DNA of 40,248 bases, taken from the IMG/VR virus record IMGVR_UViG_3300048997_000067, positions 1 to 40,248 of that record. One strand, given 5' to 3'. Each line of letters begins with the position of its first letter. The stretch's first letter is position 1. A program made the translations under genes and the position numbers. Below are positions 5,905 to 20,811 of this stretch, piece after piece. The stretch comes from a virus. A model generated the notes under the pieces. The model ran no database searches, was not told the DNA's origin, and saw only the letters and a program-made list of their open reading frames with translations.

Positions 5905-6447
5905 ATGCGACATCTCATCGCCGCGGCATTGCTATGCCTGCTTGCCATCAACCCGGCCCAGGCCGCGCGCCATCCCAACGGGCAACAGTTCTGCAGGGTT
6001 TACACTACGGATGCCGGGGCAACAGCCTTCCGCTGCTTTACACGATCGGAGGCGCGCAATTCAGCGCGGTCCTTTCGCGGTCGTCATCGCGTGGCTCACG
6101 CTCGCCAGCATCACCGCAGGGCCGTTGCTCGCATCCGCGATCGGGGGCAGATCGTCGCCCACCCGACCGGATGCCCGCGCGTGGCGTTCTGCGGCTGCGG
6201 GGTGGCCTCCCACATCTTCGGAAGTCCAATACGGGCGCTATGGCTGGCTGCCGCCTGGCTGCGCTATCCGTCGGCTGCCCCGGCGCCGGGCATGGTGGCG
6301 GTGAGACAGCATCACGTCTTCGCCATCGTGGCTCTACGTTCGCCCGGCGTCGTCTTGGCCTTCGATCCTAACTCGGGCGGCCATCGCACTAGGATTCATC
6401 TGCGCTCGCTGGCGGGGTACAAAGTGGTGAACCCAAGGGCCGGCTAG
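5905..6447 (+). CDS. Secreted Cys/His protein of unknown function (possible cysteine hydrolase)
   Basis: 180 residues from ATG 5905; longer in-frame starts lie inside the upstream gene and would destroy the signal peptide. MRHLIAAALLCLLAINPAQA is a typical Sec signal with an AQA cleavage site. The mature part has a basic middle, then PTGCPRVAFCGCGVASHIFG, an aromatic block, and PAPGMVAVRQHHVFAIVA, then a Gly/Arg-rich end. A Cys motif followed by a His-Val strand recalls NlpC/P60 or CHAP folds, but no catalytic set can be confirmed. It is the last lysis-operon gene; its TAG overlaps the converging minus-strand stop in one CTAG. Confidence 0.7.
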   Translation: MRHLIAAALLCLLAINPAQAARHPNGQQFCRVYTTDAGATAFRCFTRSEARNSARSFRGRHRVAHARQHHRRAVARIRDRGQIVAHPTGCPRVAFCGCGVASHIFGSPIRALWLAAAWLRYPSAAPAPGMVAVRQHHVFAIVALRSPGVVLAFDPNSGGHRTRIHLRSLAGYKVVNPRAG

Positions 6448-6695
6448 AGCTTCGACATATCCTGCCGGTAGGTGGTGAACAGGGCGAGTGCGAGCTGGTC
6501 GGTCGCCTCGCCGATCGCGGACTTGTTCCCGCTCTTGGCCGCCTCCAGTAGAAGTTTCGTGGCGTGCTGCCAAGCGTTCCACGCGGCTACATCGTCAGGC
6601 AGCTTCAGCATGAAGCGCCGCGCGTCATCCAGCGTGCGCAGTTCCGCATGGTCGCGCGGCTTCAGCGGCTTGGCGAGGGGCGCGTCCCAATTCAT
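6444..6695 (-). CDS. Small protein of unknown function
   Basis: 83 residues, starting MNWDAPLAKPLKPRDHAELR. ATG 6695 overlaps the stop of the upstream gene (ATGA), which decides the start against a longer in-frame extension. It is helical and fairly hydrophobic in the second half (AWNAWQHATKLLLEAA), with no Cys or obvious motif. It is the last gene of the long leftward block, and its stop codon shares CTAG with the converging plus-strand gene. No family recognised. Confidence 0.75.
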   Translation of the reverse strand: MNWDAPLAKPLKPRDHAELRTLDDARRFMLKLPDDVAAWNAWQHATKLLLEAAKSGNKSAIGEATDQLALALFTTYRQDMSKL

Positions 6696-7159
6696 TCGCT
6701 GTCGACCACCTTGCCGTCGATCTTGAGAACCACGTAAACCGCCGAGCGGCCTTGCGCGTCGCCTATCCTGATCGCGTTGGCCATCATGTCGGGCTCCTCG
6801 CCGCCGTGTTCCATGGTCTTGAGGATTTTCAGGTCGCGACCGTCCATGCTGGGATCTTGGGGCCGTCCTTCCGGGGGCACTGTCCGCAGCCCGCGGGCCT
6901 CGGCCGGCACCGCGACGGGGTTTTCCCGGAATACCGGGATCGGCCGATACGCCGCCATCCACTCGGGCGGCTCCATGCTCTTGGCCAAGGTGCGCGCGCC
7001 ATTGCGCAGGTAAATGAGCTTGTCGGGATATTTCTCGCAGAATGCGGCGAAGGCGGCGCGGGCCGGAACGAGGTCGTCGATCTCGCCAAGCTTCTCCAGC
7101 CAGTTGCCTTTGGCGTCGTACACGTCGATCGAGTAGCGCAGGTCGCGGGGGCGGCTCAT
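6692..7159 (-). CDS. Protein of unknown function
   Basis: 155 residues. The N-terminal half reads like a small alpha/beta domain (LRYSIDVYDAKGNWLEKLG, then a helix ARAAFAAFCEKYPDKLIYLR); the middle is Pro/Glu-rich linker and the end has a second strand pair (SAVYVVLKIDGKVVDSE). No catalytic motif is seen. It overlaps the next gene by ATGA. A 71-base gap separates it from the upstream gene at 7231, where a new ribosome site is used. Confidence 0.75.
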   Translation of the reverse strand: MSRPRDLRYSIDVYDAKGNWLEKLGEIDDLVPARAAFAAFCEKYPDKLIYLRNGARTLAKSMEPPEWMAAYRPIPVFRENPVAVPAEARGLRTVPPEGRPQDPSMDGRDLKILKTMEHGGEEPDMMANAIRIGDAQGRSAVYVVLKIDGKVVDSE

Positions 7160-7230
7160 GCCGGTATTGTAGCGGGCGGCGGGGGAGGGGAACAGGCGGG
7201 AGCGGTGCGCAGGTTAGGCACCACTGAGCA

Positions 7231-7542
7231 TTATCGGCCGTAGCCGAGGCGGATCATCGCCGCTCGCGAACGCTTTTCCCAATCAGCCAGGTCCGTTTCA
7301 TACTGCTCTTGCACCCAAAGCGGGATGGTCGCGCTTCGTGTCATCATAGGTGTGTCTGGCCACGTCTCATTGTGCATCTTGGCGTATTTGGCGAGTTGGC
7401 CCGACCTCTCCCATTGCTCCCCGTCTTTGGAGGCGCTGACTGAGGTGTTCGTCCGATCTTGAGCTTCAAGCCGACGAGCACGAGCGCAGAGGTCAAGCCC
7501 CTCAGAAAGCAGCTCCGCGAGATGGTCAGCGTTGTCGGTCAT
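7231..7542 (-). CDS. Protein of unknown function
   Basis: 103 residues, MTDNADHLAELLSEGLDLCA at the start, with a charged helix (ARARRLEAQDR) and a Trp/Met-rich C-terminal half (MHNETWPDTPMMTRSATIPL, then a helical end). ATG 7542 overlaps the previous stop (ATGA). It is very likely expressed as part of the chain of overlapping small genes. No known family. Confidence 0.7.
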   Translation of the reverse strand: MTDNADHLAELLSEGLDLCARARRLEAQDRTNTSVSASKDGEQWERSGQLAKYAKMHNETWPDTPMMTRSATIPLWVQEQYETDLADWEKRSRAAMIRLGYGR

Positions 7543-7739
7543 TCGTGTACTGGTCCAGCGTCACTCGGCGGATTCGGCAGAGGCATCCAGTGGGTCGGGC
7601 TGTTGAAATAAAAACCGCCCCCACAGTTCCAGATTCCGCCGCGCCAGAACGCGGTATGAAGTGAAGGGTTACCGACCTTTGCCAGAAGGACACGCGTTTC
7701 GTCCTTCGGTGCGCTCGCGATCGGCTGCCAGTTATTCAT
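7539..7739 (-). CDS. DUF551-like small protein
   Basis: 66 residues from ATG 7739; a longer in-frame start would run deep into the upstream gene. The opening MNNWQPIASAPKDETRVLLA, then AFWRGGIWNCGGGFYF and NSPTHWMPLPNPP, is the recurring DUF551 pattern (W.PI..APKD at the start, THWMPLP near the end) common in phage early operons. Its function is unknown. Both ends overlap neighbours by 4 bases. Confidence 0.8.
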   Translation of the reverse strand: MNNWQPIASAPKDETRVLLAKVGNPSLHTAFWRGGIWNCGGGFYFNSPTHWMPLPNPPSDAGPVHE

Positions 7740-7927
7740 GACGATGACCTCTTGGGAATTTCGAGTTCCAAGGCCGCCTTCATCCGGCAAGCCCACCACG
7801 CTCCCGACGCCCGGTCTAGAACATCAGGGGTCATTCTGCGGACGCGATCAGGAAAGGACAGTTCGCGCTCGCGCCAAATCTCAAGGGCGCGCTTCTCGAT
7901 CTTCTCGATTTCCCAGTCAGTGATCAT
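7736..7927 (-). CDS. Small helical protein of unknown function
   Basis: 63 residues. MITDWEIEKIEKRALEIWRE opens a highly charged helix; a short conserved-looking stretch follows (FPDRVRRMTPDVLDRASGAW). A GAGG ribosome site precedes ATG 7927. The stop overlaps the DUF551-like start. No family recognised. Confidence 0.68.
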   Translation of the reverse strand: MITDWEIEKIEKRALEIWRERELSFPDRVRRMTPDVLDRASGAWWACRMKAALELEIPKRSSS

Positions 7928-7942
7928 CGGTCCACTAACCTC

Positions 7943-8173
7943 TTAAGCATCGAGAGATTGGCGAGCACGGCGTTCTCCGCGTTCAAAAGTTGTGGCCCAA
8001 TCCTCATCACCGTAGACCCTGGCGAACCTCACCGCCGCCTTAAGATCGGCGGCGGCGCTGCCAAGGTCAGCCCGTAGCCGCTCGATCTCGGCGCGCGCCT
8101 CTCTCAACGCGGTCGTGGTGTCGGCCAGCACTTCGTTATATCCATGCTCTGCGTTCATTGTGTCGCTCATCAT
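7943..8173 (-). CDS. Small coiled-coil protein
   Basis: 76 residues with a continuous heptad-like helix (TTTALREARAEIERLRADLG onward), then a charged tail ending RRARQSLDA. Starts possible at 8173 or one codon later; the former abuts the previous stop codon. Such short coiled coils are frequent in phage early operons. Function unknown. Confidence 0.62.
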   Translation of the reverse strand: MMSDTMNAEHGYNEVLADTTTALREARAEIERLRADLGSAAADLKAAVRFARVYGDEDWATTFERGERRARQSLDA

Positions 8174-8350
8174 CTATTTGCGCCAATTAGGATATTGAGC
8201 ATCGAGGTAGGTCTCGATCTTGGCATCCCGCCCGATGGTGGACTCGCCCACGGGCGCGCAGGCGAACGCGTGCTCCAAATGATCGAGATACCTACACACC
8301 GCGCATTTGCCGCAGGCATCATTGCCGCAATCTGAAATTCGTCGGCTCAT
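8174..8350 (-). CDS. Small Cys-rich protein (possible zinc knuckle)
   Basis: 58 residues from ATG 8350, which overlaps the upstream stop (ATGA). The first half has closely spaced cysteines (SDCGNDACGKCAVCRYLDHL, with another Cys in AFACAP), enough for one zinc site. The end is polar (ETYLDAQYPNWRK). It may bind nucleic acid or another protein; nothing more specific can be said. Confidence 0.68.
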   Translation of the reverse strand: MSRRISDCGNDACGKCAVCRYLDHLEHAFACAPVGESTIGRDAKIETYLDAQYPNWRK

Positions 8351-8526
8351 TTTGCTTCCGGGGTTTGCCCATTTTCGATTGCGTTCCGCGCTAGAGCGAT
8401 TATCTCGTGCAGCGCGTTGCGCTTGCTTAGCGGTCCCTGTCCAAGCGCTGCTGCCGCACACGCTCGGACACCGCGGAGGGCAGCATCGAACAGCCGCTCA
8501 GCTTCTATGGGGTTCGGCTCGCTCAT
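8347..8526 (-). CDS. Small protein of unknown function
   Basis: 59 residues, MSEPNPIEAERLFDAALRGV at the start, entirely helical and rich in Ala. ATG 8526 overlaps the stop of the membrane-protein gene upstream (ATGA). Each end is linked to a neighbour by a 4-base overlap, which is the main evidence that it is a gene. Confidence 0.65.
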   Translation of the reverse strand: MSEPNPIEAERLFDAALRGVRACAAAALGQGPLSKRNALHEIIALARNAIENGQTPEAK

Positions 8527-8699
8527 GTTCGATCCTCCGATTGCCCATGTCTCATCGCCCATTCCTCGGCGACATCCCGCCAAATTTCACGAGTCCAGCA
8601 AAATGCCCACAAGCCACCCAGCCAGGCCAGGGCGAGCGCAACCGAAGACCCGGAGACCACGCCGAGAAGGAATGCTGCATCGAATAGGTTCTGGCGCAT
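8523..8699 (-). CDS. Small single-span membrane protein
   Basis: 58 residues. After MRQNLFDAAF comes a hydrophobic helix (LLGVVSGSSVALALAWLGGL), then Trp/Cys-containing and charged residues (WTREIWRDVAEEWAMRHGQS). ATG 8699 to TGA 8523, overlapping the next start by ATGA. A short membrane anchor with a cytoplasmic charged tail is typical of phage exclusion or antiholin-like peptides, but there is no direct evidence for function. Confidence 0.65.
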   Translation of the reverse strand: MRQNLFDAAFLLGVVSGSSVALALAWLGGLWAFCWTREIWRDVAEEWAMRHGQSEDRT

Positions 8700-8718
8700 C
8701 TATCGGTCCTGTGGTGGT

Positions 8719-8886
8719 TTATGACTGACTGTAGGCGCGGGCGATCTCGCCAGCAAAGGCCCCGAACAGCAGTATCATGCCCTGCGTTTCAACAGATGCT
8801 CCGGCGTCCCTTTCGGCACGCTTGGCCATGTTTTCCATAGCCAACATGACGTTATTCCAAACGCGGGCGTGATCTTGCGGCGTCAT
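8719..8886 (-). CDS. Small helical protein of unknown function
   Basis: 55 residues, MTPQDHARVWNNVMLAMENM, then a charged stretch and an amphipathic end (MILLFGAFAGEIARAYSQS). ATG 8886 overlaps the upstream stop as ATGA. Its conserved placement in the overlap chain supports it. No family recognised. Confidence 0.65.
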   Translation of the reverse strand: MTPQDHARVWNNVMLAMENMAKRAERDAGASVETQGMILLFGAFAGEIARAYSQS

Positions 8887-9128
8887 TTGTTTACATCCTG
8901 CTCATGTGTGAGCGCTTCGCGGATACGCATGGGGATGTTCGCCATGGCGTTGCGCAGCCGCCCGGTCGCCTCTCTCTCGTAGATCTGAAAGACCGTATCT
9001 GCCTCCCGCAGAAGCCCCCGCAGTCGCGCGTTCTCGGCTTTGAGCCGCCGAAGGTCATTTCCGTCCGTGTGGCTCAGGATGTTCCCAAAGCCCAGCGGAT
9101 CGTGCCCCTCGTTATCCATGATGCCCAT
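8883..9128 (-). CDS. Small coiled-coil protein
   Basis: 81 residues from ATG 9128, which follows GGGAGAAG by a good distance. It starts MGIMDNEGHDPLGFGNILSH and continues as a leucine/charge-patterned helix (LRRLKAENARLRGLLREADT). It overlaps the upstream gene by 17 bases in another frame and the downstream gene by 4. It could dimerise through the helix. Function unknown. Confidence 0.7.
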   Translation of the reverse strand: MGIMDNEGHDPLGFGNILSHTDGNDLRRLKAENARLRGLLREADTVFQIYEREATGRLRNAMANIPMRIREALTHEQDVNK

Positions 9129-9324
9129 AAACTTCTCCCGATGATAAGGTAGCGTTGGACGTTTTAGGAAAGCAGCGGCGTAGACAATCGGAGCAATAAT
9201 CGCGACCTTTAATAGTCTTTGCTCCACACTCCGTGCGGGCAACCCGGCGAGTCGCGCCCACCGTAGGTGCCGCAGCGACGATGACGGCGCAGTTATCGCA
9301 AACCAGGATGCGCTCGATGCTCAT
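9112..9324 (-). CDS. Small Cys-rich protein (zinc-ribbon-like)
   Basis: 70 residues. A CxxC near the start (ILVCDNCAVIV) and a second cluster (TECGAKTIKGRDYCSDCLRR, then another C) could hold a zinc ion. The C-terminus (TSNATLSSGEVYGHHG) lies in the overlap with the next gene. Possible DNA- or protein-binding role. Confidence 0.65.
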   Translation of the reverse strand: MSIERILVCDNCAVIVAAAPTVGATRRVARTECGAKTIKGRDYCSDCLRRCFPKTSNATLSSGEVYGHHG

Positions 9325-9530
9325 TTGGGGTCCAATTTCTCACCGTTATTGCGACGAACGAAAAGCCGCTCGGCCATACGAATTACCGCGCCGGCTAGTG
9401 GCTCGTATTTTTCCCAGCCCTCTTGACCTCGACGATCGATGGCGCCTGGATTTTCCCCGCGATGAAGGCAAATCTCCTTTGCCATCTCAATTCGCTCCTT
9501 GCGCCGAGCCTCTGGCGTTTGCTCAGTCAT
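9321..9530 (-). CDS. Small charged protein of unknown function
   Basis: 69 residues starting MTEQTPEARRKERIEMAKEI. ATG 9530 overlaps the upstream membrane-gene stop (ATGA), so this start is preferred over one two codons earlier. It is basic and helical, with a Gly-Asn turn in the middle. No family recognised. Confidence 0.65.
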   Translation of the reverse strand: MTEQTPEARRKERIEMAKEICLHRGENPGAIDRRGQEGWEKYEPLAGAVIRMAERLFVRRNNGEKLDPK

Positions 9531-9673
9531 CGGCATTCACCCGTCGCGGCGTCGGTCTGCTCCCAGGAGCACCCGAATAGCTGATCCGCGGTCGGCTTGT
9601 GCTTGATGTGAAATCCAGCCAACCATAGGATCGCAATCACCGTTACCGTCAGCGCACATACCCAATTAGTCAT
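9527..9673 (-). CDS. Small single-span membrane protein
   Basis: 48 residues: MTNWVCALTVTVIAILWLAG is an N-terminal membrane helix, followed by a short polar domain with two cysteines (DQLFGCSWEQ and TGECR). The stop overlaps the next start. It is the second of several one-span peptides in this block. The two Cys suggest a periplasmic disulphide if the helix is N-in. Confidence 0.62.
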   Translation of the reverse strand: MTNWVCALTVTVIAILWLAGFHIKHKPTADQLFGCSWEQTDAATGECR

Positions 9674-9675
9674 CG

Positions 9676-9876
9676 TCAGCGTCCGCTAAGAGCGCGCTGC
9701 CCATCGACCAGGGCGGAATAGGATTGATGTGGTGTCATGCCGGAAGATGCCGAGCGCGAGCGGGTACGCGCTTGCGCTTCCTCAAGAGACAACCGCCCAG
9801 CCTTTACGGCCGCGACATCTGCCATCCGCGCATGATGCTCTTGCTTTCCCCACTCGATACGCTCTGCCTCGGTCAT
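9676..9876 (-). CDS. Small charged protein of unknown function
   Basis: 66 residues, MTEAERIEWGKQEHHARMAD at the start, with a Gln/Arg/Ser-rich second half. An AAGGAG 7 bases before ATG 9876 is one of the better ribosome sites in this block. Two bases separate it from the next gene. Function unknown. Confidence 0.65.
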   Translation of the reverse strand: MTEAERIEWGKQEHHARMADVAAVKAGRLSLEEAQARTRSRSASSGMTPHQSYSALVDGQRALSGR

Positions 9877-9904
9877 TTGCTAACTCCTTTGATAACGTTG
9901 AACC

Positions 9905-10087
9905 TTATGTTTTGATCTCGTGGCCGCATTTCGGGCACTTAAGAATGTCGTAGGTATCTGACCCGCCGGTGTAGTCGCGGTAGGTCTCCCTGCGCGTCTC
10001 GGATCGCGTGTATTGGAGCATGCTCGCGCAGTTGCCGCACGTCACGCGAAGCACCTTCGTATTGTCGACTCCCACGATCTCGACCAT
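9905..10087 (-). CDS. Small zinc-ribbon protein
   Basis: 60 residues with two CxxC knuckles about 36 residues apart (VTCGNCASML and LKCPKCGHEIKT), the classic zinc-ribbon layout. Between them is a Tyr/Thr/Arg-rich loop (RRETYRDYTGGSDTYD). Zinc ribbons of this kind bind nucleic acid or the transcription machinery; the target cannot be read from the sequence. Confidence 0.72.
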   Translation of the reverse strand: MVEIVGVDNTKVLRVTCGNCASMLQYTRSETRRETYRDYTGGSDTYDILKCPKCGHEIKT

Positions 10088-10113
10088 CTATCGATCCTCA
10101 GTTGTGATGAGAC

Positions 10114-10332
10114 TCAACTTTTTGCGAGTTTGATTTCTGACTTCTGAGGGTCGACCCACCACGCGCGGCTGTTTCCGTCGACATAAAGCCCACGATGTTC
10201 CATGCTCATTCCGGGCATGAAATTCGGAACGATGTCGTCCACTCGCATCCATGTCTGGCCTGCGACCGTCACCCTCCCAAAATCGCCGTTGACGGCACCC
10301 TGGATAGCTTCGATGATCTTCTGGCTTTTCAT
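10114..10332 (-). CDS. Small protein of unknown function
   Basis: 72 residues starting MKSQKIIEAIQGAVNGDFGR. It has a predicted helix followed by beta-like stretches with many Trp and Met (QTWMRVDDIVPNFMPGMSME, NSRAWWVDPQ). AGGAGAG lies 8 bases before ATG 10332. No family recognised. Confidence 0.68.
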   Translation of the reverse strand: MKSQKIIEAIQGAVNGDFGRVTVAGQTWMRVDDIVPNFMPGMSMEHRGLYVDGNSRAWWVDPQKSEIKLAKS

Positions 10333-10371
10333 AGATTTCTCTCCTGTTAAGTTTTCGAATGTGAATGAACC

Positions 10372-10533
10372 TCAAGATTCCATCAGGGCGATGCCGCCAA
10401 CTATGAAACCGCAGACGAGAGCGGTCATACCGATGACGGATACAACGGCGAGCACGCCGCCGGCGACGTAGCAGTAGGTGCCGATTGCGACGAACGGCGC
10501 TAATAGCATCATCGCCCCGATAGTCCGTTTCAT
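10372..10533 (-). CDS. Small two-span membrane protein
   Basis: 53 residues, nearly all hydrophobic: a basic start (MKRTIGAMMLLAPFVAIGTY) followed by a second helix (AVVSVIGMTALVCGFIVGGI) and a short end. The long frame upstream of ATG 10533 overlaps other coding sequence and is not used. Two tightly packed helices suggest a holin-like or exclusion-type peptide; this is inference. Confidence 0.62.
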   Translation of the reverse strand: MKRTIGAMMLLAPFVAIGTYCYVAGGVLAVVSVIGMTALVCGFIVGGIALMES

Positions 10534-10559
10534 GCTCAATGCCTCGCCATTCGTGGACT

Positions 10560-10898
10560 TTATTCGCCGCGCTCGCGCTTCCAGCGCATCAGACCGAAGA
10601 ACCAACGCGCATCGTCGCGACTGCTCATCCCTATCCACCATGTGAGGCCTAGTTGCTGGATCAGGCGCCCGGTCCCTGGCGCGCTCAGAACCTCGCCGTT
10701 TTTCCTGGTGGATATTTCTCGATAGTCGAAGAACTTTAGCTCCCCCTTGCTGTGCGGACGCCCGACATGGAAGCGGGGGAAATGGCTCGCGACATAGACG
10801 CAGACGACCAGCGCCGCAAAGCAAGCAGCGGCGACCACGGCCGTCCCAACCACGACCATTCCGAAAATCGCAAACCAGCTTTCCATCGCGGCGCTCAT
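10560..10898 (-). CDS. Membrane-anchored protein of unknown function
   Basis: 112 residues from ATG 10898. After MSAAMESWF there is one long membrane helix (MVVVGTAVVAAACFAALVVC), then a soluble basic domain (FHVGRPHSKGELKFFDYREI, then TGRLIQQLGLTWWIGM). The soluble part would face the cytoplasm or periplasm depending on topology. No family recognised. Confidence 0.66.
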   Translation of the reverse strand: MSAAMESWFAIFGMVVVGTAVVAAACFAALVVCVYVASHFPRFHVGRPHSKGELKFFDYREISTRKNGEVLSAPGTGRLIQQLGLTWWIGMSSRDDARWFFGLMRWKRERGE

Positions 10899-10914
10899 GT
10901 TTAATGCCCTGCGG

Positions 10915-11364
10915 TCATTCAATCTTTTGCTCGGTGTCCGTGCGCGGCTCCATTCCGAGTTGAATGCCGCCGTAAAGCCCCCGCCGCACAGTTTCAATTC
11001 TGCCGTTGTCGCCGACTATGCGGATATGGTCGATCGCGATGACTTCGATCACGCCGAACCCGCACCCGCAGTTGAATACTCTCTGGCCGACAAAAAACCG
11101 AGCGTCGTCCTTGCCCCGACTCAATGTGCCGTTCTGCGCTTTGCGCCGTAATTCGCGATGGCGCGCCTCCAGGTTCATGGCCTCTGGATTTTTGATCCCC
11201 CGAATATATATGTGGGCCATAACTAAGCTAATCGATGGAATGGCGGCGCATATTTCGGATGGTGACTTCCCGATCTTGGCGAGGTCGTAAATTTCTTTGG
11301 CTCTTGTTCCATCCTGCGGAATGCGCCAGCCGTTCTCGTCTCTCGGTCGAGATTTCCTACTCAT
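10915..11364 (-). CDS. Predicted HTH-containing protein
   Basis: 149 residues from ATG 11364; the preceding gene's stop lies at 11357, giving an 8-base overlap, and GGAGG precedes the start. Residues about 15-60 look like a helix-turn-helix (TRAKEIYDLAKIGKSPSEIC). A basic linker and a beta-rich C-terminal half follow (FFVGQRVFNCGCGFGVIEVI, IDHIRIVGDNGRIETV), with CGCG in a tight turn. It lies immediately downstream of the second recombinase and may be its regulator or accessory factor. Confidence 0.65.
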   Translation of the reverse strand: MSRKSRPRDENGWRIPQDGTRAKEIYDLAKIGKSPSEICAAIPSISLVMAHIYIRGIKNPEAMNLEARHRELRRKAQNGTLSRGKDDARFFVGQRVFNCGCGFGVIEVIAIDHIRIVGDNGRIETVRRGLYGGIQLGMEPRTDTEQKIE

Positions 11365-12316
11365 CCTCCCCCTCCTTCTTCGTGCCGAGCACGCGCGCGA
11401 TGGCCTCGGCCGATCCGCGCGAATAGCCCATCGTGGTGCTGAGGTTCTGATGGCCGGCGAGCTTGCGGATGTCGTCGGGGTTGTTCCCGTCCGCGAATGC
11501 CTTGGTGATCCGGCCAGCGCGGCTGTCCATGTTCCAGACGTTCTTGGGAACCCCGGCCAAGTCCGCCATGCGGCGCCAGATGCGGCGAAACTTCCAGCCC
11601 TCATAGGGGAGGCGCGTCTGCGGGTCGATGATGAGCGGGCCGCTCGGCGGTGCTGAGAACCATTCCTCGTCCACGGCCGGGCAGTTTTTCAGATCGAAGG
11701 TGAGCACCTGACCGCGTTTGCTGGTCTGGTGCGTCAGGATCATATCGGCGTCGATTTCTTCCCGCGTGACGCCGCGCACCCATTTCATGGTGCCATCGGC
11801 GCTGAGGACGGTAGAGAGTTCGGGGCGACCGATGGGGATCCATTCGCCCAGAATGTCCTTCTGTCGCATGGCGGTACTGGTCTGGAGCGCCTGGGCGAGC
11901 GCAACGGCGTAGTACAGGTGGAACGTCGCATAGTCGCGCACGTCCTCGCCCTGGTCTGCGGTCAGCCAGACCGTCCGCCGCGCCGAATTCGGAAATCTGA
12001 GGCCCTTGAGCAACCCCCTGAGCCGCTGGCAATCCGGGTCCTCAAGGATGGTGGCGCCGAACCCCACGATCGTCCGCAGCATGGTCGCCAAGCTGTGCGC
12101 CATGGCGATCCGGTCGCCCTCGATCCATGAGGCGTGCAGGTGCAGAAGGTCACGCGCCCCGAGCCCGGGCAGTTCCCGGTCGCCCATCTCCCGGATCAGC
12201 CGGGCGATCAGGCGCTTGTAGCCCTCCTGGGTGACGTAGCGGAGCGGCTTCACCTTGCTGTTGAAAGGCGAGTCCGGGTCGGTGAGGTAGGCGTCGGCTA
12301 ACTGCAGGATGTTCAT
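11357..12316 (-). CDS. Divergent tyrosine recombinase, second in this genome
   Basis: 319 residues. The C-terminal half carries most of the tyrosine-recombinase set: Arg151 in STAMRQKDILG, a Lys near 200 (HQTSKRGQ), Arg266 in NMDSRAGRI, His289 in KLAGHQNLS and Tyr298 in MGYSRG. The His of the usual HxxR box is replaced by Met263. The N-terminal half is helical, in place of a canonical arm-binding domain. It is unrelated in detail to the integrase at 15198 and is not next to attP. A role in dimer resolution, a second integration site or local inversion is possible. The gene overlaps small HTH genes on both sides. Confidence 0.75.
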   Translation of the reverse strand: MNILQLADAYLTDPDSPFNSKVKPLRYVTQEGYKRLIARLIREMGDRELPGLGARDLLHLHASWIEGDRIAMAHSLATMLRTIVGFGATILEDPDCQRLRGLLKGLRFPNSARRTVWLTADQGEDVRDYATFHLYYAVALAQALQTSTAMRQKDILGEWIPIGRPELSTVLSADGTMKWVRGVTREEIDADMILTHQTSKRGQVLTFDLKNCPAVDEEWFSAPPSGPLIIDPQTRLPYEGWKFRRIWRRMADLAGVPKNVWNMDSRAGRITKAFADGNNPDDIRKLAGHQNLSTTMGYSRGSAEAIARVLGTKKEGEDE

Positions 12317-12522
12317 TTTCTGATCCTTCGATAGGTCACGGTGACTTTCCTGACAGCCTCAAGTCCAAGCGGGCCACAAATAGAAGGGCCGGGCGCACGG
12401 CGGCTAAGCAGCACGTCGCTGACATAGGCGGCCGACACGTCATGCTGACGCGCCCATTCCCGGATACCGCCGGCTTTGTCGCAGGCCCTTCGGAGCAGAT
12501 CGCATACATCTTCGACTGTCAT
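12313..12522 (-). CDS. Small HTH DNA-binding protein
   Basis: 69 residues from ATG 12522 (a TTG at 12558 would add 12). A lambda-repressor-like helix-turn-helix is visible: DLLRRACDKAGGIREWARQH, then DVSAAYVSDVLLSRRAPGPS, followed by LGLEAVRKVTVTYR. The stop overlaps the recombinase start (ATGA), so it is coupled to it. It may act as a directionality factor or local regulator for that enzyme. Confidence 0.7.
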   Translation of the reverse strand: MTVEDVCDLLRRACDKAGGIREWARQHDVSAAYVSDVLLSRRAPGPSICGPLGLEAVRKVTVTYRRIRK

Positions 12523-12632
12523 GCCGTCACTGTAAGCCGCCGCCGCTGACAAATCCAATCACGTTTCATTTCGTCCACTGTCCTGTTTTTCCTCTATGCG
12601 GAACAGCGTCAGATAGTAGGAAGCCATTGCAT

Positions 12633-13319
12633 TTATTCCGCGGCTATCTTCGCAACCATGATTTGAGCAAGCGCCGCGCGTCCGATGTATTCGGCATAGG
12701 CCGGCGGAATCGCCTCGCTCATTTCTCCAAGCGTCATCCAATCAATGCCGAGTGCCTCTGCGGCGGCTACCTTGTGGCCTCCGATCCACACGTCTCGCGT
12801 GCCCCGACCGCCAGCGGAGGCAGCTCTGCGCCGCGCATGACCGCCGTAAATGCCTATTACGGGCCGCTCATCGTGGCTGCATGCCGGCGGTAGGATAGGA
12901 AAATTGCATTCAAATAATCTGTGTCGCTGTGTACGGCAGTCTTGCGCACCGAGTCCAAACATGGAACCGCAGAGCGTGATCGGATTGCGCATATCGAATT
13001 TTGCCGCCTCGACGTTTTCAATGCACCATGGAATGCCGGGACGCCCAATCTTAAACCGGACGAAATTAATCAGCCGTGGGGCCCCGCGAGTCCCGGGCGC
13101 GTGGCGTAATGCTGTGTACCCCTGACACGGGGGAGACGCCCAAATGAAATCGAATGCCTCTGTGGTCGAAAAAGAGAGCGCGTCTGCTCGGTGAAATCGA
13201 AAGGGATAGCGTGGCTGTGGCTTGATATCCACGCCGGTTACGTCGAAGCCGGCGCGATATAGGCCCATCGATGCGCCGCCGGCGCCGCAGAATAGATCGA
13301 GTGCTTTTGGTCTGCTCAT
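12633..13319 (-). CDS. DNA (cytosine-5) methyltransferase
   Basis: 228 residues. Motif I is LDLFCGAGGASMGLYRAGF (7-25); motif IV ASPPCQGYT carries the catalytic Cys65; motif VI is WCIENVEA (98-105); motif VIII is QRHR (131-134); the C-terminal motif X region is EAIPPAYAEYIG. The stretch between motifs VIII and X, which should hold the target recognition domain, is only about 60 residues, so the protein is short for its family. It would methylate C5 of cytosine in a short DNA sequence, likely to protect phage DNA from host restriction. No cognate nuclease is seen nearby. Confidence 0.93.
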   Translation of the reverse strand: MSRPKALDLFCGAGGASMGLYRAGFDVTGVDIKPQPRYPFRFHRADALSFSTTEAFDFIWASPPCQGYTALRHAPGTRGAPRLINFVRFKIGRPGIPWCIENVEAAKFDMRNPITLCGSMFGLGAQDCRTQRHRLFECNFPILPPACSHDERPVIGIYGGHARRRAASAGGRGTRDVWIGGHKVAAAEALGIDWMTLGEMSEAIPPAYAEYIGRAALAQIMVAKIAAE

Positions 13320-13336
13320 TTGCTTGCTGACGCGCC

Positions 13337-13591
13337 CTAAGCGGATTGCATCCGCACGGCTTCAACATCCGTGAGGTACTGCCGGCCGGTATCGGTTAGC
13401 TCGTAGCGATAGGCCGATGTCTCGCGTAGCTTGCCTTGGCGGATCGCTGAACGCACGGTTGGGTATTTGTGACCGTGCGAAAAAAGGTGAGACCAATTAT
13501 CGCGACCGCCGCTGCGCTCTACGTCGCGCAGCAAATAGGTAAGGCGATCCAGTTGAAGGTGGATGGCATGATCGATGCGGGGCCTAAGCAT
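13337..13591 (-). CDS. Small winged-helix-like protein
   Basis: 84 residues. MLRPRIDHAIHLQLDRLTYL opens a helical part; GHKYPTVRSAIRQGKLRETS and YRYELTDTGRQYLTDVEAVR look like the recognition helix and wing of a small winged-helix fold. GGGAGAG precedes ATG 13591. It ends 17 bases before the methyltransferase start and may regulate it. The fold call is from pattern only. Confidence 0.6.
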   Translation of the reverse strand: MLRPRIDHAIHLQLDRLTYLLRDVERSGGRDNWSHLFSHGHKYPTVRSAIRQGKLRETSAYRYELTDTGRQYLTDVEAVRMQSA

Positions 13592-13621
13592 TAGTCTCTC
13601 CCGTATCTATCCTGTGTTCTG

Positions 13622-13780
13622 TCATGACTTACCTTTTGCGGGATCTTCAGGCTGCTTGGCCGGCGGCTTTCCCGCGGGATGGCAACGGTGCATCGCGTGC
13701 CATCCCTGCCAGTGCCCCCACGCTTGCGCGTGGGCCGCCGAGACGGGGAGACAAAGAGCGGCGATCAGGAGGAGGCGCAT
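13622..13780 (-). CDS. Small secreted His/Trp-rich protein
   Basis: 52 residues. MRLLLIAALCLPVSAAHAQA is a clear Sec signal with an AHA cleavage site. The mature peptide is only about 33 residues: WGHWQGWHAMHRCHPAGKPP, then a Pro/Lys-rich tail. Four His, three Trp and one Cys suggest metal or surface binding. A periplasmic peptide of this kind might alter cell-surface properties of the lysogen. Confidence 0.65.
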   Translation of the reverse strand: MRLLLIAALCLPVSAAHAQAWGHWQGWHAMHRCHPAGKPPAKQPEDPAKGKS

Positions 13781-13785
13781 GTGGT

Positions 13786-13956
13786 TCAATCCTGTGCTGC
13801 ATGGCCGTCTGACAAATCCTCGCCGTGCACCGGGCAGTTCTCCGGGCCTGGGCAATGGCCCGGCCAGTCGGGATAGCCGCAGAGGCATCCGGCACGACGC
13901 CTTGCTCGGCGCTGGTCAATGGCCTCACGCCGGTCGTCTTCATCAACCTCGTGCAT
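13786..13956 (-). CDS. Small Cys-rich protein
   Basis: 56 residues from ATG 13956 with GGGAGA before it. After an acidic/basic start (MHEVDEDDRREAIDQRRARR) comes a compact Cys/Pro/Gly region (GCLCGYPDWPGHCPGPENCP) with four Cys and two His in 26 residues. That is enough for a small zinc-binding knot. It lies between the PP-loop enzyme and the secreted peptide. No family recognised. Confidence 0.62.
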   Translation of the reverse strand: MHEVDEDDRREAIDQRRARRRAGCLCGYPDWPGHCPGPENCPVHGEDLSDGHAAQD

Positions 13957-13990
13957 TTCATTCTCCCAGTGCTGTACTAACGTTGGACAT

Positions 13991-14800
13991 TTAAACGCCG
14001 CACATACCGTCGCACTCGTTGTTGAACAGATCGATTTGCCCATGATCCTCGGGTGTCGAAAGATCCACCTCATCGAGGGGCACGCACGACCGATGGATGA
14101 ATTGAGAGCCGAGGAATCGTTTCACCATGCCCGGCGTTCGCAGGCTCCGATCCAGAGCGACCATCGCCGCCCATTCGATCGGCGCAGTATTGCGTCGGGC
14201 GCGTAATTGGTCGTCGCGTTGGTAAGGACAGAAAATGCAAGCCGACTTTGCCGGCACCGGGTAGGCCTTATCTGCAAGCCACTTAAGGCACCATTTGCGG
14301 TCGCGGCGCTGTTCGAGAAGCGGCCACCGATGGACGATGTAATCGACATCGGAGGGCTTCATTCGGGTCGCTTCGTCCATGGAAATGCCGATCCAGCATT
14401 CGACACTGCCGGGGGCGACGTAGCCGCTCGGGCCGACGCCGAGAAGTTCTCGCGTCTTGTGTCGAATGGGGCGGATTTTGAAGTTGCGGGTGCATTGGCG
14501 CTGAACCATCGACTTCACGCCGTCTAAGGCGATCTTGTGGAACGGCACGCGGGCCTGTTCGTCGCCAGCGATCAATGCTTCGCTAAGCCGGCCTCGGGCG
14601 GCGATGTGCACAGGGAACGGCAGCACGTTCGGCGACATCAGCCAGCGAAGGTGGTCATAGACAGCGGCGGGCTCATCTCCGGTGTCTGCGAAGATCGCGC
14701 AATCCGGCATCGGCGTAATTTCGCCGTGCGCGGCCATGAGCGCCATCGTGGTGCTTTGCACGCCAGCGCCGAGGGAAATTATGCGAATCTGGGCGGTCAT
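13991..14800 (-). CDS. PP-loop (PAPS reductase-like) ATP pyrophosphatase family protein
   Basis: 269 residues. The N-terminal PP-loop reads SLGAGVQSTTMALM, then CAIFADTGDEPAAVYDHLRW, typical of the PAPS reductase/ATP-pyrophosphatase fold that adenylates a substrate. Conserved family blocks follow: QCTRNFKIRPIR (Cys103), WIGISMDEATRMKPS, SACIFCPYQRDD (Cys188, Cys191), HRSCVPLDEVDL, and a CDGMCGV end. The cysteine pairs could bind zinc or an iron-sulphur cluster. Relatives are frequent in phages and usually labelled PAPS reductase-like, but true sulphate reduction is unlikely; nucleic-acid or tRNA modification is the usual guess. It overlaps a small membrane gene upstream (ATGA). Confidence 0.85.
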   Translation of the reverse strand: MTAQIRIISLGAGVQSTTMALMAAHGEITPMPDCAIFADTGDEPAAVYDHLRWLMSPNVLPFPVHIAARGRLSEALIAGDEQARVPFHKIALDGVKSMVQRQCTRNFKIRPIRHKTRELLGVGPSGYVAPGSVECWIGISMDEATRMKPSDVDYIVHRWPLLEQRRDRKWCLKWLADKAYPVPAKSACIFCPYQRDDQLRARRNTAPIEWAAMVALDRSLRTPGMVKRFLGSQFIHRSCVPLDEVDLSTPEDHGQIDLFNNECDGMCGV

Positions 14801-14955
14801 TTGTGCGCTGGTCCCCTCTCAGCAGACGGAAACCACCCGCAGCCGCGATACCACTGCTGCGCAAACGGGCGCGCGTTCTCGGGTCGCGTCGCGTAGGCGA
14901 TCGCGGCGATCAGCAGCACGAGCGGCGTGAAGATCGGGTCGGGGCCGCAGGTCAT
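14797..14955 (-). CDS. Small membrane protein next to attP
   Basis: 52 residues from ATG 14955. A short start (MTCGPDPIFT) leads into one membrane helix (PLVLLIAAIAYATRP), then a polar tail with Trp and Cys. Its stop overlaps the PP-loop enzyme's start (ATGA), so the two are coupled. It is the first gene beyond attP on this strand: in the integrated state it lies at the end of the prophage and must be read from the chromosome side or from a local promoter. Confidence 0.65.
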   Translation of the reverse strand: MTCGPDPIFTPLVLLIAAIAYATRPENARPFAQQWYRGCGWFPSAERGPAHK

Positions 14956-14976
14956 CGGCGAACACCCACGGAACAG

Positions 14977-15191
14977 AGTCCACGGATTTTCCACGGATCG
15001 ACTTGCGCGTTTCGTGCTTCGTTCTGCGCGATTGCAACATCGAGCGCAGGCGAGCGGCGCTGAAAATGGCTGATTTTATTGGGTTTCGTGGTGCTGCCGC
15101 ACAGGATTGAACTGTGGACCTCCCCCTTACCAATTTTGGGTAAGTGGTTGATTGGATTAGTGCTGGCTTCAAAGTCCACGGTCATTCCACG
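14977..15191 (-). other. attP: attP region: tRNA-Thr(GGT) 3'-half core with flanking arm-type repeats
   Basis: The core at 15089-15133, read on the minus strand, is the 3' half of a tRNA-Thr: anticodon loop TTGGTAA, stem GGGGG, AGGTC variable loop, T-arm CACAG-TTCAATC-CTGTG, acceptor strand CGGCAGC, discriminator A, CCA. It resembles the E. coli tRNA-Thr(GGT) 3' half. The 5' half is missing, as expected of attP. On each side stands a pair of direct repeats in the same orientation: AGTCCACGG-3-TTCCACG at 14977-14995 and again at 15173-15191, with TCCACG units 11 bp apart, matching the arm-site layout of lambda-type integrases. The right pair ends 7 bases from the integrase stop. Confidence 0.88.
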
Positions 15192-15197
15192 TTCTCG

Positions 15198-16151
15198 CTA
15201 TATTTTGCCGATCACGGCGCGAACCCGCGTCGGATCGAGTTTGGCGTAACGCATTACCGACTTGTGGTCCTTCCAGCCCCCGGCCTCCATGATCTCCATG
15301 GGGGATACGCCTTCGTTCGCCAGCCAGGTTGCGAAGCTATGGCGGGCCATGTGGGGGGTGAACCGAATGTCCAGCCGTTTGCAGAACGGCCGCAGTTCTC
15401 GGTAGAGGTTCGACTTGTTGCCCCAATGGAACACGCGCCCGGCGGCGGCCGGCTGCTGAGCCAAGATGGCTTGCACCTTCGGGTGCAGCGGCATCACCCG
15501 CCAGTCGTCCGTCTTGCTGATGTGATAGCGGACGGTTCCCTCTTTCAGGTCTACATCCTTCCAAGTGACTCGCAGAACGTCGCTGATGCGCCAGCCCTGA
15601 TGGAACAGCCAGACCAGCAGGAGCTTCATCGGCCCCTCAGCGGCCCCCATAAGGGCTTTGGCGAGGGGTTTCGTGAGGGCGCGGGGCTCCGGTGCCTTCT
15701 CCTTGAATTTCTTCACGCGGATATAGGGGCCAAGATTGTTCTCGGCCGCGTAGTGCAGGACGGCAGATGCGGGCACCAGCACGTCCCGGTTCTTGGTGGC
15801 CGGCGATGTGCCGGGCGATAGCACGTTGGCCGCATTGATCAGCGTATGCAGGTTGATATCGGTGAGCAGGTCGTTTCCAAGGAACGCCGCGAGCCTATCG
15901 ACGCTCTTTTGGAAGGGCTTGCTCGGCCGGCGATATTCCTTGTACATCTGGGCGGCTATCCCGAATGTTGCTGGCGCGAATTTCTTGGCGCTTTCGGTGG
16001 CGAGCCGGCGTTCAAGCTGCTCCTTAAATCGCTGAGCAGCCTTTTTGTCTCGCGCTTTCGTTGACGCATCAACAGCGCGTCCACAGTACGTTCCGCGGAC
16101 GTACCAGAAAGGGGTCTTGCCTGCCCTTGGCGGCTTGAGTTCAAGCGACAT
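15198..16151 (-). CDS. int: Phage integrase, tyrosine recombinase
   Basis: 317 residues. The first 55 residues form a small arm-binding domain (TPFWYVRGTYCGRAVDASTK), followed by a helical core-binding domain. The catalytic set is complete apart from the usual His/Trp swap: Arg188 (GWRISDVLRV), Lys213 (SKTDDW), His267 and Arg270 (TPHMARHSF), Trp293 (GGWKDH), Tyr302 (MRYAKL). It joins attP at 15089-15133 to a host tRNA-Thr gene. The gene reads toward attP and ends 64 bases from the core, the standard arrangement. Its first 196 bases overlap the HTH gene upstream in another frame. Confidence 0.95.
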   Translation of the reverse strand: MSLELKPPRAGKTPFWYVRGTYCGRAVDASTKARDKKAAQRFKEQLERRLATESAKKFAPATFGIAAQMYKEYRRPSKPFQKSVDRLAAFLGNDLLTDINLHTLINAANVLSPGTSPATKNRDVLVPASAVLHYAAENNLGPYIRVKKFKEKAPEPRALTKPLAKALMGAAEGPMKLLLVWLFHQGWRISDVLRVTWKDVDLKEGTVRYHISKTDDWRVMPLHPKVQAILAQQPAAAGRVFHWGNKSNLYRELRPFCKRLDIRFTPHMARHSFATWLANEGVSPMEIMEAGGWKDHKSVMRYAKLDPTRVRAVIGKI

Positions 16152-16345
16152 CGTTCCAACTCCTTGATGTGAACGCGGATGCGGACGATATCACGCTCGA
16201 TGAATTCCTTGACCCGGCCGATCGGGGTGTAGAACGGCTCGCCAATGGCATCAGCGGGATTGTCCCGGAGCCACGTTTGCAGCCACCGGCGCTTATGGCC
16301 GAGCCGGCGGGCGGCTTCTTCCAGACCGAACGGTTGCTCACTCAT
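15956..16345 (-). CDS. HTH excisionase-like protein overlapping the integrase
   Basis: 129 residues. The N-terminus is a MerR/excisionase-type helix-turn-helix: PFGLEEAARRLGHKRRWLQT, then FYTPIGRVKEFIERDIVRIR, followed by a basic helix. From about residue 65 the frame runs under the integrase start, a 196-base overlap, and becomes Arg/Ser-rich and unstructured. ATG 16345 overlaps the HNH gene stop (ATGA). A recombination directionality factor directly upstream of int is the natural reading; it could also regulate int expression. Confidence 0.7.
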   Translation of the reverse strand: MSEQPFGLEEAARRLGHKRRWLQTWLRDNPADAIGEPFYTPIGRVKEFIERDIVRIRVHIKELERCRLNSSRQGQARPLSGTSAERTVDALLMRQRKRETKRLLSDLRSSLNAGSPPKAPRNSRQQHSG

Positions 16346-16668
16346 CGTTCCCTCGATGCAACGACAATCTCACCCGAAAATTTCCGCCAGCGCGTCATGG
16401 TGCGGGGCCTCTTGATGCCAACCTGCCGCCGCTCGCGTCGCTTAGCCTTGGCAATCGCCGGCACGTCATCGGCCGTCGTCTTGAGCTTGTGACAGGACCG
16501 GCACTTAACGGAACAATTGGCAAGCGACGCATCGCCGCCCATCTCGCAAGGGATCAGGTGATCGTATTCGATGTTCCCCGTGAACAGCTTGGCGCTGCAT
16601 TCCTCACAGTGGCCGCCGCAACGAGTAAATGCCTGCATCTTGGTTTTGGCGTTGAATTCGGTTCTCAT
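16342..16668 (-). CDS. HNH endonuclease
   Basis: 108 residues from ATG 16668. Zinc-binding cysteines flank the HNH core: TRCGGHCEECSAKLFTGNIE, then YDHLIPCEMGGDASLANC with the catalytic His after Asp, and CRSCHKLKTTAD closing the motif. The tail is strongly basic (KAKRRERRQVGIKRPRTMTR). HNH proteins of this size act as nicking or double-strand nucleases, in phages as free-standing homing enzymes or as packaging or recombination helpers. Both ends overlap neighbours by 4 bases. Confidence 0.9.
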   Translation of the reverse strand: MRTEFNAKTKMQAFTRCGGHCEECSAKLFTGNIEYDHLIPCEMGGDASLANCSVKCRSCHKLKTTADDVPAIAKAKRRERRQVGIKRPRTMTRWRKFSGEIVVASRER

Positions 16669-18103: not shown

Positions 18104-18778
18104 TTAGCGCACTCCTGCGAGGTTGTTTTGGGTTGCTCTCTTCTGTTTTCTCAGCCTGGGTGTAAGGAGCGCGGCTTCCGCGTTCCACCCATGGGTAACT
18201 CGATGCTTTATGGTCCCGTAGCAGAGGCTTGTTCCTGATTTGGCAACCGCCTCAAGAAGCGAAAGCCGCTCACCTCTGAATGTCACATAAATTGTGTTCG
18301 TCCGATTGTTGGCCTGCTCTTTTGCCGTTGCCCATCGGACATTCCCCGGCTCATAATTCCCGCGCACGTTAATTCGCTCGATCGAATGCTTCGGCGTCGG
18401 GCGCGGCCCCACATGGGCAAGAAACGCCTCAAAGTCTTTGACCCATGCCGGATGCAGTTTGATACCGCTACCGCCGTAACGCGGGTAATCCTTTGAGGTA
18501 GTTTTCAGACAGCGCGACTTGATTGCGCGAAACGAGCTATATTCGAGCGTCTTTGTTTTACCGTGCGTTGTCTGTTGTGCGCGGGCCTTTTCGTCTCGGA
18601 AACATCCGCACGAGCGTGTGCCGCCGTAACGAAGATCAGCGCGCCTGACGATAACCCGCTTCCCGCAATCGCAAACGCAATTCCATCGCGTGGCCGTTTT
18701 GCGAACATGCGGAACGCGGCTGACGGCTGTGAGCCGCCCAAACCTCTGTCCAGTTAGATCGATGAGGACTTGCCACAT
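18104..18778 (-). CDS. AP2/HNH-type homing endonuclease
   Basis: 224 residues from ATG 18778. The N-terminus is the usual opening LTGQRFGRLTAV, then a zinc knuckle (CVCDCGKRVIVRRADL, CGCF). The HNH-like catalytic part reads YPRYGGSGIKLHPAWV, then HSIERINVRGNYEPGNVRWA followed by TAKEQANNRTN, which is diagnostic for this homing family. A C-terminal DNA-binding repeat follows (LLEAVAKSGTSLCYGTIKHR). It probably spreads by copying itself into related genomes. It sits between two small early genes and may have arrived as a unit. Confidence 0.9.
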   Translation of the reverse strand: MWQVLIDLTGQRFGRLTAVSRVPHVRKTATRWNCVCDCGKRVIVRRADLRYGGTRSCGCFRDEKARAQQTTHGKTKTLEYSSFRAIKSRCLKTTSKDYPRYGGSGIKLHPAWVKDFEAFLAHVGPRPTPKHSIERINVRGNYEPGNVRWATAKEQANNRTNTIYVTFRGERLSLLEAVAKSGTSLCYGTIKHRVTHGWNAEAALLTPRLRKQKRATQNNLAGVR

Positions 18779-19760: not shown

Positions 19761-19979
19761 TCAGCCCTCGAAGCCTTCGGCGCGAGCTATGGCGGCGTCG
19801 ATGTTTTCGATGCAGAGTTGGCCGATACCGGCGTCCGGGCAGTGCAGGTTCATGAGCGACACAATTGTCCATCGAGATGATTTGAGCGCGGCGAGCAATT
19901 CCGCGGTTCGACCTTCCGCAATGAGCTTGTCATTGTGGGGCTTCACGATCGCCATCATGTCGTCCATGGAGAGGTTCAT
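19761..19979 (-). CDS. Small helical early protein
   Basis: 72 residues starting MNLSMDDMMAIVKPHNDKLI, with Ala/Leu-rich helices and two Cys (HCPDAGIGQLCIENIDAAIA). It overlaps the HNH gene upstream by 4 bases. Function unknown. Confidence 0.63.
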   Translation of the reverse strand: MNLSMDDMMAIVKPHNDKLIAEGRTAELLAALKSSRWTIVSLMNLHCPDAGIGQLCIENIDAAIARAEGFEG

Positions 19980-20311
19980 GGCGTGCTCCTCGGTGAAAAT
20001 TGATTGCGATACCGGCCCTTGCGGCCTCGATCGCGGGCGTTATCCAGCGGCGTGCCGAGAAAGAGATGATCTGGATTGACGCAGCAGGGCGTGTCGCACT
20101 CGTGCAGAACTTGAAGCTCGCCGGGGATTGGCCCTCGATAGAGCCTCCATGCGTAGCGGTGCGCTCGATGATTTTTGCCGGATCGGACAAATGTCCCGTA
20201 TCCGTACCGATCGACGGCGCCGAGCCAAATCCAGCATCCCGCCATCGGGATAGGCGTCAGCCGGTCCTCAAATTCTGAGGCCGTGGGGAATGGAAGGCGG
20301 GGAGGCGACAT
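19976..20311 (-). CDS. HNH homing endonuclease, first gene of the leftward operon
   Basis: 111 residues. The order of motifs is that of short HNH_3 enzymes: AGCWIWLGAVDRYGYGTF, then HRAHRYAWRLYRGPIPGELQ, VLHECDTPCCVNPDHLFLGT and DNARDRGRKGR. His and Asn of the HNH core are all present. It is the first gene after the leftward promoter at 20336-20363. Its start region has no strong ribosome site and lies against a 7-bp hairpin (20315-20336). Confidence 0.88.
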   Translation of the reverse strand: MSPPRLPFPTASEFEDRLTPIPMAGCWIWLGAVDRYGYGTFVRSGKNHRAHRYAWRLYRGPIPGELQVLHECDTPCCVNPDHLFLGTPLDNARDRGRKGRYRNQFSPRSTP

Positions 20312-20314
20312 GGC

Positions 20315-20367
20315 TGCTCTCGCTTCGATGAGAGCACCATACTTAAATTTGGGTAGGTGTCAACCTA
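20315..20367 (-). promoter_or_regulatory. Leftward early promoter (PL-like) with repressor operator and leader hairpin
   Basis: Read leftward: -35 TTGACA (complement of 20358-20363), a 16-base spacer, -10 TATGGT (complement of 20336-20341). The -35 lies in TAGGTTGACACCTA, and the spacer contains the near-palindrome ACTTAAATTTGGGT (20341-20354), which recurs beside the rightward promoter. The transcript begins at a perfect 7-bp hairpin, TGCTCTC (20315-20321) with GAGAGCA (20330-20336), which pairs up a GAGAG that could serve as ribosome site for the HNH gene. Confidence 0.72.
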
Positions 20368-20375
20368 AAAATGAG

Positions 20376-20726: not shown

Positions 20727-20811
20727 AAGCGCAATTCTACTGAATTTTAGGTGGGCCGTCCCCCACAGATTTTTAGGTTGACTTTCACCTAAATTTGGGT
20801 TTGATGGGGGC
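20727..20811. promoter_or_regulatory. CI/Cro divergent promoter and operator region
   Basis: Holds the repressor's -10 TAGAAT (complement of 20734-20739) and, rightward, a -35 TTGACT at 20778-20783 with a weak -10 TTGATG at 20801-20806. Operator elements: ACCTAAATTTGGGT (20787-20800), a near-perfect 14-bp palindrome shared with the PL region, and half-sites TAGGT at 20748-20752 and 20774-20778. Both early promoters have TAGGTTGAC over the -35, so one repressor can shut both. Confidence 0.7.

Follow-up and report, generated by a model that had tools for sequence, protein, structure and literature searches.

What does a long run of small, tightly packed genes do beside the attachment site of a temperate phage? 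The question is raised by IMG/VR record IMGVR_UViG_3300048997_000067, whose whole stretch of 40,248 bases (the window) has identical ends of 127 bases and therefore represents a complete circular phage contig of ~40.1 kb. The locus (the block) occupies positions 6444–14955 on the minus strand, next to the phage attachment site attP, and a preliminary description had viewed it as a reservoir of orphan peptides. We lean towards another reading, in which the block would be the attP-distal, mosaic accessory end of the early operon that runs leftward, and would act in phage entry and establishment. The conserved part of the block is a modification and recombination core, which corrects the emphasis on orphan peptides.

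The block is made of real genes. Open reading frames (ORFs) starting with ATG on the minus strand cover 8074 of its 8512 nt (95%), and nine overlaps of 4 nt or 1 nt (ATGA/TGATG-type) join neighboring leftward ORFs. Dinucleotide-type shuffles of the same DNA gave 5052 ± 505 nt tiled (maximum 6366) and 1.3 ± 1.1 overlaps (maximum 4), and the plus strand gave 4642 nt and no overlap. Tiling and coupling thus lie far above the shuffles, establishing the genes as a set and ruling out chance ORFs as the origin of the block; the chaining by ATGA overlaps described earlier is borne out by the same figures. The block holds ~29 genes (g01–g29), ~25 of them small ORFs, and the majority have no known relatives. 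The earlier picture of about 25 small and mostly unfamiliar genes was accordingly right about a dense orphan set but omitted four larger or recognizable genes: a PAPS-reductase-like gene (g28, 13991–14800), a C5 methyltransferase (g24, 12633–13319), a helix-turn-helix (HTH) gene (g22, 12313–12522) and a second tyrosine recombinase (g21, hereafter rec2, 11357–12316).

Comparison with relatives separated a constant skeleton, consisting of int, modification and HTH–rec2 genes, from a variable cargo of small genes. Searches with rec2 matched two further phage loci, L002 (record G001) at 68% identity and L113 (record G023) at 57%; over the full protein alignment the values are 69% and 59%, making rec2 the best-conserved part of the block. 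In both loci int is followed by methyltransferase(s), small ORFs, HTH–rec2 with a 4-base overlap and a further set of small ORFs, the array converging on late genes that point leftward. Common to all three are rec2, the HTH gene (35–38% identity) and a distantly related C5 methyltransferase; g29, g09 and, weakly, g06 are further shared with L002 only, and the ~20 remaining small genes were found in the window block only. The terminase, portal, capsid and tail proteins of the window gave no tblastn match in the L002 or L113 records. No match at E 1e-3 was obtained for the 25 small proteins among 50,697 phage records, in a search run with one long concatenated query, which weakens E-values. The block is therefore not conserved as a whole, in keeping with the preliminary description, which had looked to related phages for genes that vary. 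At 14108–14320, L002 also encodes a small protein that by eye resembles the C-terminal domain of Xre/MbcA/ParS antitoxins, with no obvious toxin partner.

The most notable part of the block is this recurrent, arm-less second recombinase. The AlphaFold model of rec2 (pLDDT, the predicted local distance difference test, 93) aligns by Foldseek to residues 75–356 of lambda Int (TMt 0.80, root-mean-square deviation 3.0, ~310 columns), predicting a core-binding plus catalytic tyrosine recombinase fold. The catalytic residues read R151, K200, M263, R266, H289 and Y298; at M263, Met replaces the first His of HxxR. The same replacement occurs in 101 of 111 full-length relatives, in which R, K, R, H and Y are kept. 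Against Pfam PF00589 rec2 scores 14.2 bits, below the cut-off of 27.1, and most full-length relatives likewise fall just below or near that cut-off. Relative to these homologs, rec2 and its L002 and L113 counterparts lack ~85 N-terminal residues, presumably the arm-binding domain, although this segment has no Pfam match in the relatives. The family itself consists of integrases, as an intact tRNA lies 17–281 nt downstream in 31 of 56 genome loci of the full-length form (nearly all Hyphomicrobiales) and a member sits at the genome end of Bradyrhizobium phage ppBjS10J-1 (OP596615), behind an HTH gene. That integrase shares 36% identity and an overlapping upstream HTH gene with rec2; unlike rec2, it is full-length with its N-terminal domain, lies at the genome end and is annotated as hypothetical. 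No att site adjoins rec2, which overlaps its neighbors on both sides.

Short forms of the family do not form one clade, since at least nine label changes are needed on the tree; the window, L002 and L113 proteins group together with support 100. On this tree, arm-less forms arose several times. Possession of another integrase proved not to be a general rule for short-rec2 phages (~5 of 14), and no serine recombinase was found as the true integrase in them. Divergence between the window and L002 rec2 genes at codon positions 1/2/3 (0.25/0.19/0.44) indicates purifying selection.

These data bear on the idea that rec2 is what remains of an integrase since replaced, with the block being mostly passenger DNA that has no selected function. 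Integrases at prophage ends make up its family, several chromosomal short forms have decayed with loss of catalytic residues, and the small ORFs have atypical codon use. The catalytic residues of rec2 itself are nevertheless intact, its truncation and coupled HTH gene are kept in three phages under purifying-type divergence, and the tight, coupled tiling argues against junk, so that we hold this explanation to be unlikely. Rather than integrating alone, rec2 probably works at core-type sites or modulates Int.

Arm-binding domains have been described as essential for mobility, with the shufflon recombinase Rci as a precedent for their loss (PMC8138268). Like Rci and other simple, arm-less tyrosine recombinases (PMC8138268), rec2 has core-binding and catalytic domains only; unlike Rci, it comes from a separate Met-for-His family, is coupled to an HTH gene and resides in a phage with another integrase. 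Could rec2, as an Rci-like enzyme, drive the turnover of the block by adding, removing or inverting small gene cassettes at short repeats? It is the most conserved gene amid private cargo, arm-domain loss has the precedent just cited, and a candidate repeat exists. An element reading GTCCACGAATGGCGAGGCATTGAGC-ATG lies upstream of g18 (10531–10569, minus strand), and L002 carries three direct copies plus one inverted 12-mer of this ~38-base element around GTYCACGAATGGCSAG (sites 8606, 11478 and 12017), at gene boundaries. The window has a single copy, however, and all four full copies (three in L002, one in the window) stand directly before the start codons of unrelated genes in these two phages, which otherwise share little, a placement comparable to that of the start-associated sequences of mycobacteriophages (PMC3203893). 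There are no convincing inverted-repeat site pairs, and the element has no good two-arm core-site layout. By this analogy the element may be start-associated or promoter-like; a recombination site is the less likely reading. Its 42 exact matches in all viral contigs look like chance, and it was rejected as a widespread site. Cassette shuffling by rec2 is thus a long shot. We give similarly little credence to a fuller version, in which HTH–rec2 would be a dedicated arm-less recombinase derived repeatedly from the Met-for-His tRNA integrases, reshuffling the attP-proximal arm beside the main integrase as a phage counterpart of shufflons and integrons that supplies new small effector genes. If active, an arm-less recombinase would explain the fast content change of such phage arms, and rec2 would add a class of tyrosine recombinases working with no first catalytic His.

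Several further observations concern the rec2 family. A canonical integrase near a rec2-family recombinase also occurs in L156, L142 and L117, and across contig ends in G059 and G060, forming a recurring type of dual-integrase phage. In L136, L148, L166 and L170 (near 10000), arm-less members have head genes, for prohead protease or connector, as neighbors instead of att. The decayed chromosomal genes with lost catalytic residues are found in Bradyrhizobium (L198, L200, L205 and L259).

The other part of the core comprises two putative modification enzymes. The translation of g24 contains the motifs DLFCGAGG (I), SPPCQ (IV), ENV (VI) and QRHR (VIII), matches Pfam PF00145 with 23 bits (cut-off 22) and PHROG 363 at 2e-31, and by these features g24 is a C5 cytosine DNA methyltransferase. 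In a Bradyrhizobiaceae genome (L191), a 71% relative of g24 adjoins a rec2-family integrase. The product of g28, a PP-loop sulfurtransferase-like protein assigned to PHROG 424 (‘PAPS reductase’), is modeled with pLDDT 93 as a PP-loop fold close to CysH, LarE, NcsA and TtuA, with PAPS reductases, LarE and NcsA as its best Foldseek matches; it further matches the PADLOC SspD model at 5e-8. Seven cysteines are invariant across 42 aligned sequences. No Pfam match was found at 0.1, the catalytic ECGLH motif of CysH is absent and the C-terminus reads ECDGMCGV. The protein therefore shares the HUP/PP-loop fold and conserved cysteines with the SspD, CysH and NcsA–TtuA–LarE enzymes but differs from them in having neither a Pfam match nor ECGLH, and no SspA–C partners were noticed in the block. 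Transfer of sulfur to nucleic acids or other substrates seems a likelier role than sulfate assimilation. A general g28–g29 pairing was rejected, as g29 is missing from other g28 loci. The PHROG 424 family is common in phages, and a C5 methyltransferase sometimes comes after it (L391).

How the block would be expressed depends on its position. Late genes run rightward, with terminase at ~25.3 kb, portal at 26.7 kb, capsid at 30 kb and tail genes continuing across the contig ends to 3.5 kb, followed on the same strand by the lysis genes at 3.9–5.9 kb. From a CI-type repressor (20.4–20.7 kb), the early genes extend leftward through HNH and ERF-type recombination genes to xis and int. The block forms the left end of this early strand and there converges on the lysis genes. 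The gene int (15198–16151, minus strand) encodes a canonical tyrosine integrase with an N-terminal domain (Pfam PF00589, 7.7e-24; PHROG 1), for which no close relatives were found; upstream, at 15956–16345 on the minus strand, a gene with no Pfam or PHROG match is by its position a probable excisionase (xis) or HTH gene. Directly downstream of int, attP spans 14974–15191 (minus strand) as a core with flanking arm repeats. Its core at 15086–15130, read on the minus strand as TTGGTAAGGGGGAGGTCCACAGTTCAATCCTGTGCGGCAGCACCA, corresponds by eye to the 3′ half of tRNA-Thr(GGT), with the anticodon loop, a complete T-arm and a terminal CCA. The core is flanked by 22-base direct repeats, CGTGGAAnnnCCGTGGACTnTG, at 15170–15191 and 14974–14995, each with two CGTGGA units, an arrangement that reads as the layout of arm-type integrase sites. 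A tRNA 3′ half with arm repeats behind int implies that the block begins at attP and, in a prophage, would come to lie at the end opposite int, and the location between lysis genes and prophage end claimed in the preliminary description is thereby confirmed. The record itself is a circular contig, and we infer the prophage state; no integrated copy or host was recovered by attP match among 397 sampled Hyphomicrobiales genomes. We read the phage as temperate and podovirus-like, from a soil bacterium and with a probable host among the Hyphomicrobiales.

A candidate leftward early promoter, TTGACA-16-TATGGT (20336–20363, minus strand), lies inside a CI-type operator, and no other minus-strand site reaches a 10-of-12 sigma-70-like match. 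It is embedded in a 38-base operator-like arm (20335–20372) with an inverted copy at 20769–20806 across CI. By analogy with lambda, in the circular genome after infection this CI-controlled left promoter would read through the recombination genes, xis and int into the block, and integration at attP would separate the block from the promoter and place it at the other prophage end. The skeleton (int with attP, one or two enzymes that modify DNA, and the translationally coupled HTH–rec2 pair) would stay fixed, and the remaining content would be small ORFs under rapid exchange. The methyltransferase would mark phage DNA against restriction, and small proteins would act on host or rival functions. 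Since the clearest functions of the block are DNA modification and recombination, action on entry is indicated, and modification with probable counter-defence during entry and establishment is the most likely service of the block.

The placement recalls the lambda b region, in which variable, non-structural accessory genes lie beyond attP at the prophage end opposite int. The window block is likewise accessory, variable, non-structural and beyond attP; unlike the b region, it is distal on the leftward strand, converges on the lysis genes and carries a second recombinase, modification enzymes and unrelated cargo.

In Gordonia phage CarolAnn and the cluster N mycobacteriophages, lysogeny-expressed defence genes near integration and immunity functions exclude other phages (PMC6426606). 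With these precedents, the block may instead be a lysogen-expressed defence or superinfection-exclusion island whose membrane and Cys-rich peptides block other phages. It lies near integration and immunity functions and varies between relatives, as such islands do, and it encodes several short membrane peptides. Like the CarolAnn and cluster N loci, it combines small variable genes, some of them for single membrane proteins, with nearby integration and immunity genes (PMC6426606), but no homolog was found. Among the small genes, Pfam, PHROG and phage tblastn searches detected no known exclusion, defence or anti-defence family, and PADLOC, applied to the larger genes and the HTH gene only, returned nothing beyond a generic methyltransferase and SspD. 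Nor did the promoter scan find a better minus-strand promoter inside the block than the left promoter. Because the block runs in the same direction as that promoter, would lose contact with it on integration and has no convincing promoter of its own, expression in lysogens is not favored. We regard a lysogenic exclusion island as a possible but clearly less probable explanation; that the small genes work in anti-defence or exclusion is plausible, if unproven. Should their action fall at entry or in the lysogen, they would make a compact set of new counter-defence or exclusion candidates.

Several points weigh against the early-operon reading. Overall, the promoter scan gives hits at chance level, and an unseen alphaproteobacterial promoter could drive the block in lysogens. 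In L113, a promoter-like TTGACG-17-TATAAC and CTCATATGAG repeats immediately precede the block, a point in favor of the exclusion island; together with the chance-level scan, this makes lysogenic expression of the block possible. An early operon that continues past int requires attP to be free of a terminator, the orphan small genes could do anything, and the skeleton is known from three phages only. Separately, a divergent ribbon-helix-helix-like gene sits with that promoter-like sequence between int and block in L113 (6750–6835).

The remaining genes, all on the minus strand, are described from attP outwards. At the attP end, g29 (14797–14955) encodes a small membrane peptide of borderline hydropathy with a 40% relative at the same place in L002. 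Beyond g28 follow the Cys-rich g27 (13786–13956), the secreted peptide g26 (13622–13780) and the orphan g25 (13337–13591), and then g24. The YdaS/Cro-type HTH protein of g22 overlaps rec2, which has no N-terminal domain, by 4 nt, and the orphan g20 (10915–11364) overlaps rec2 by 8 nt on its other side. A membrane protein (g19, 10560–10898, by hydropathy), a hydrophobic membrane peptide (g18, 10372–10533) and the orphan g17 (10114–10332) precede g16 (9905–10087), a zinc-ribbon protein of PHROG 2834 (4.8e-16). The orphan g15 (9676–9876), the membrane peptide g14 (9527–9673) and the orphan g13 (9321–9536) are followed by g12 (9112–9324), with six Cys and two CxxC, and by g11 (8883–9128), a coiled coil predicted from sequence. 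Next come the orphan g10 (8719–8886), the membrane peptide g09 (8523–8699, MRQNLFDAAF...; L002 relative at 3.5e-12), the orphan g08 (8347–8526), the Cys-rich g07 with CxxCxxC (8174–8350), the coiled coil g06 (7943–8173; weak L002 relative, 1.8e-4) and the orphan g05 (7736–7927). The distal end consists of g04 (7539–7739) and the orphans g01–g03 (6444–7542), g03 having a 52% relative in L123.

Most of the small-protein classes assigned earlier agree with this survey. Five of the six proposed membrane or secreted peptides (those starting at 8523, 9527, 10372, 10560 and 13622) are supported by hydropathy and the sixth, at 14797, is borderline; four of the five proposed Cys-rich proteins (8174, 9112, 9905 and 13786) stand, and the fifth, at 10915, has only 3 Cys in 149 aa. 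The DUF551-like assignment holds for g04 (Pfam PF04448, E = 3.6e-7, 31.4 bits against a cut-off of 22).

Rfam gave no match. Elsewhere in the window, the early operon by eye contains three HNH endonuclease-like genes (16342–16668, 18104–18778 and 19976–20311). In the late operon, two glycosyltransferase-like genes and one methyltransferase-like gene, also recognized by eye, stand right after the capsid gene (31217–33461), pointing to possible virion decoration.

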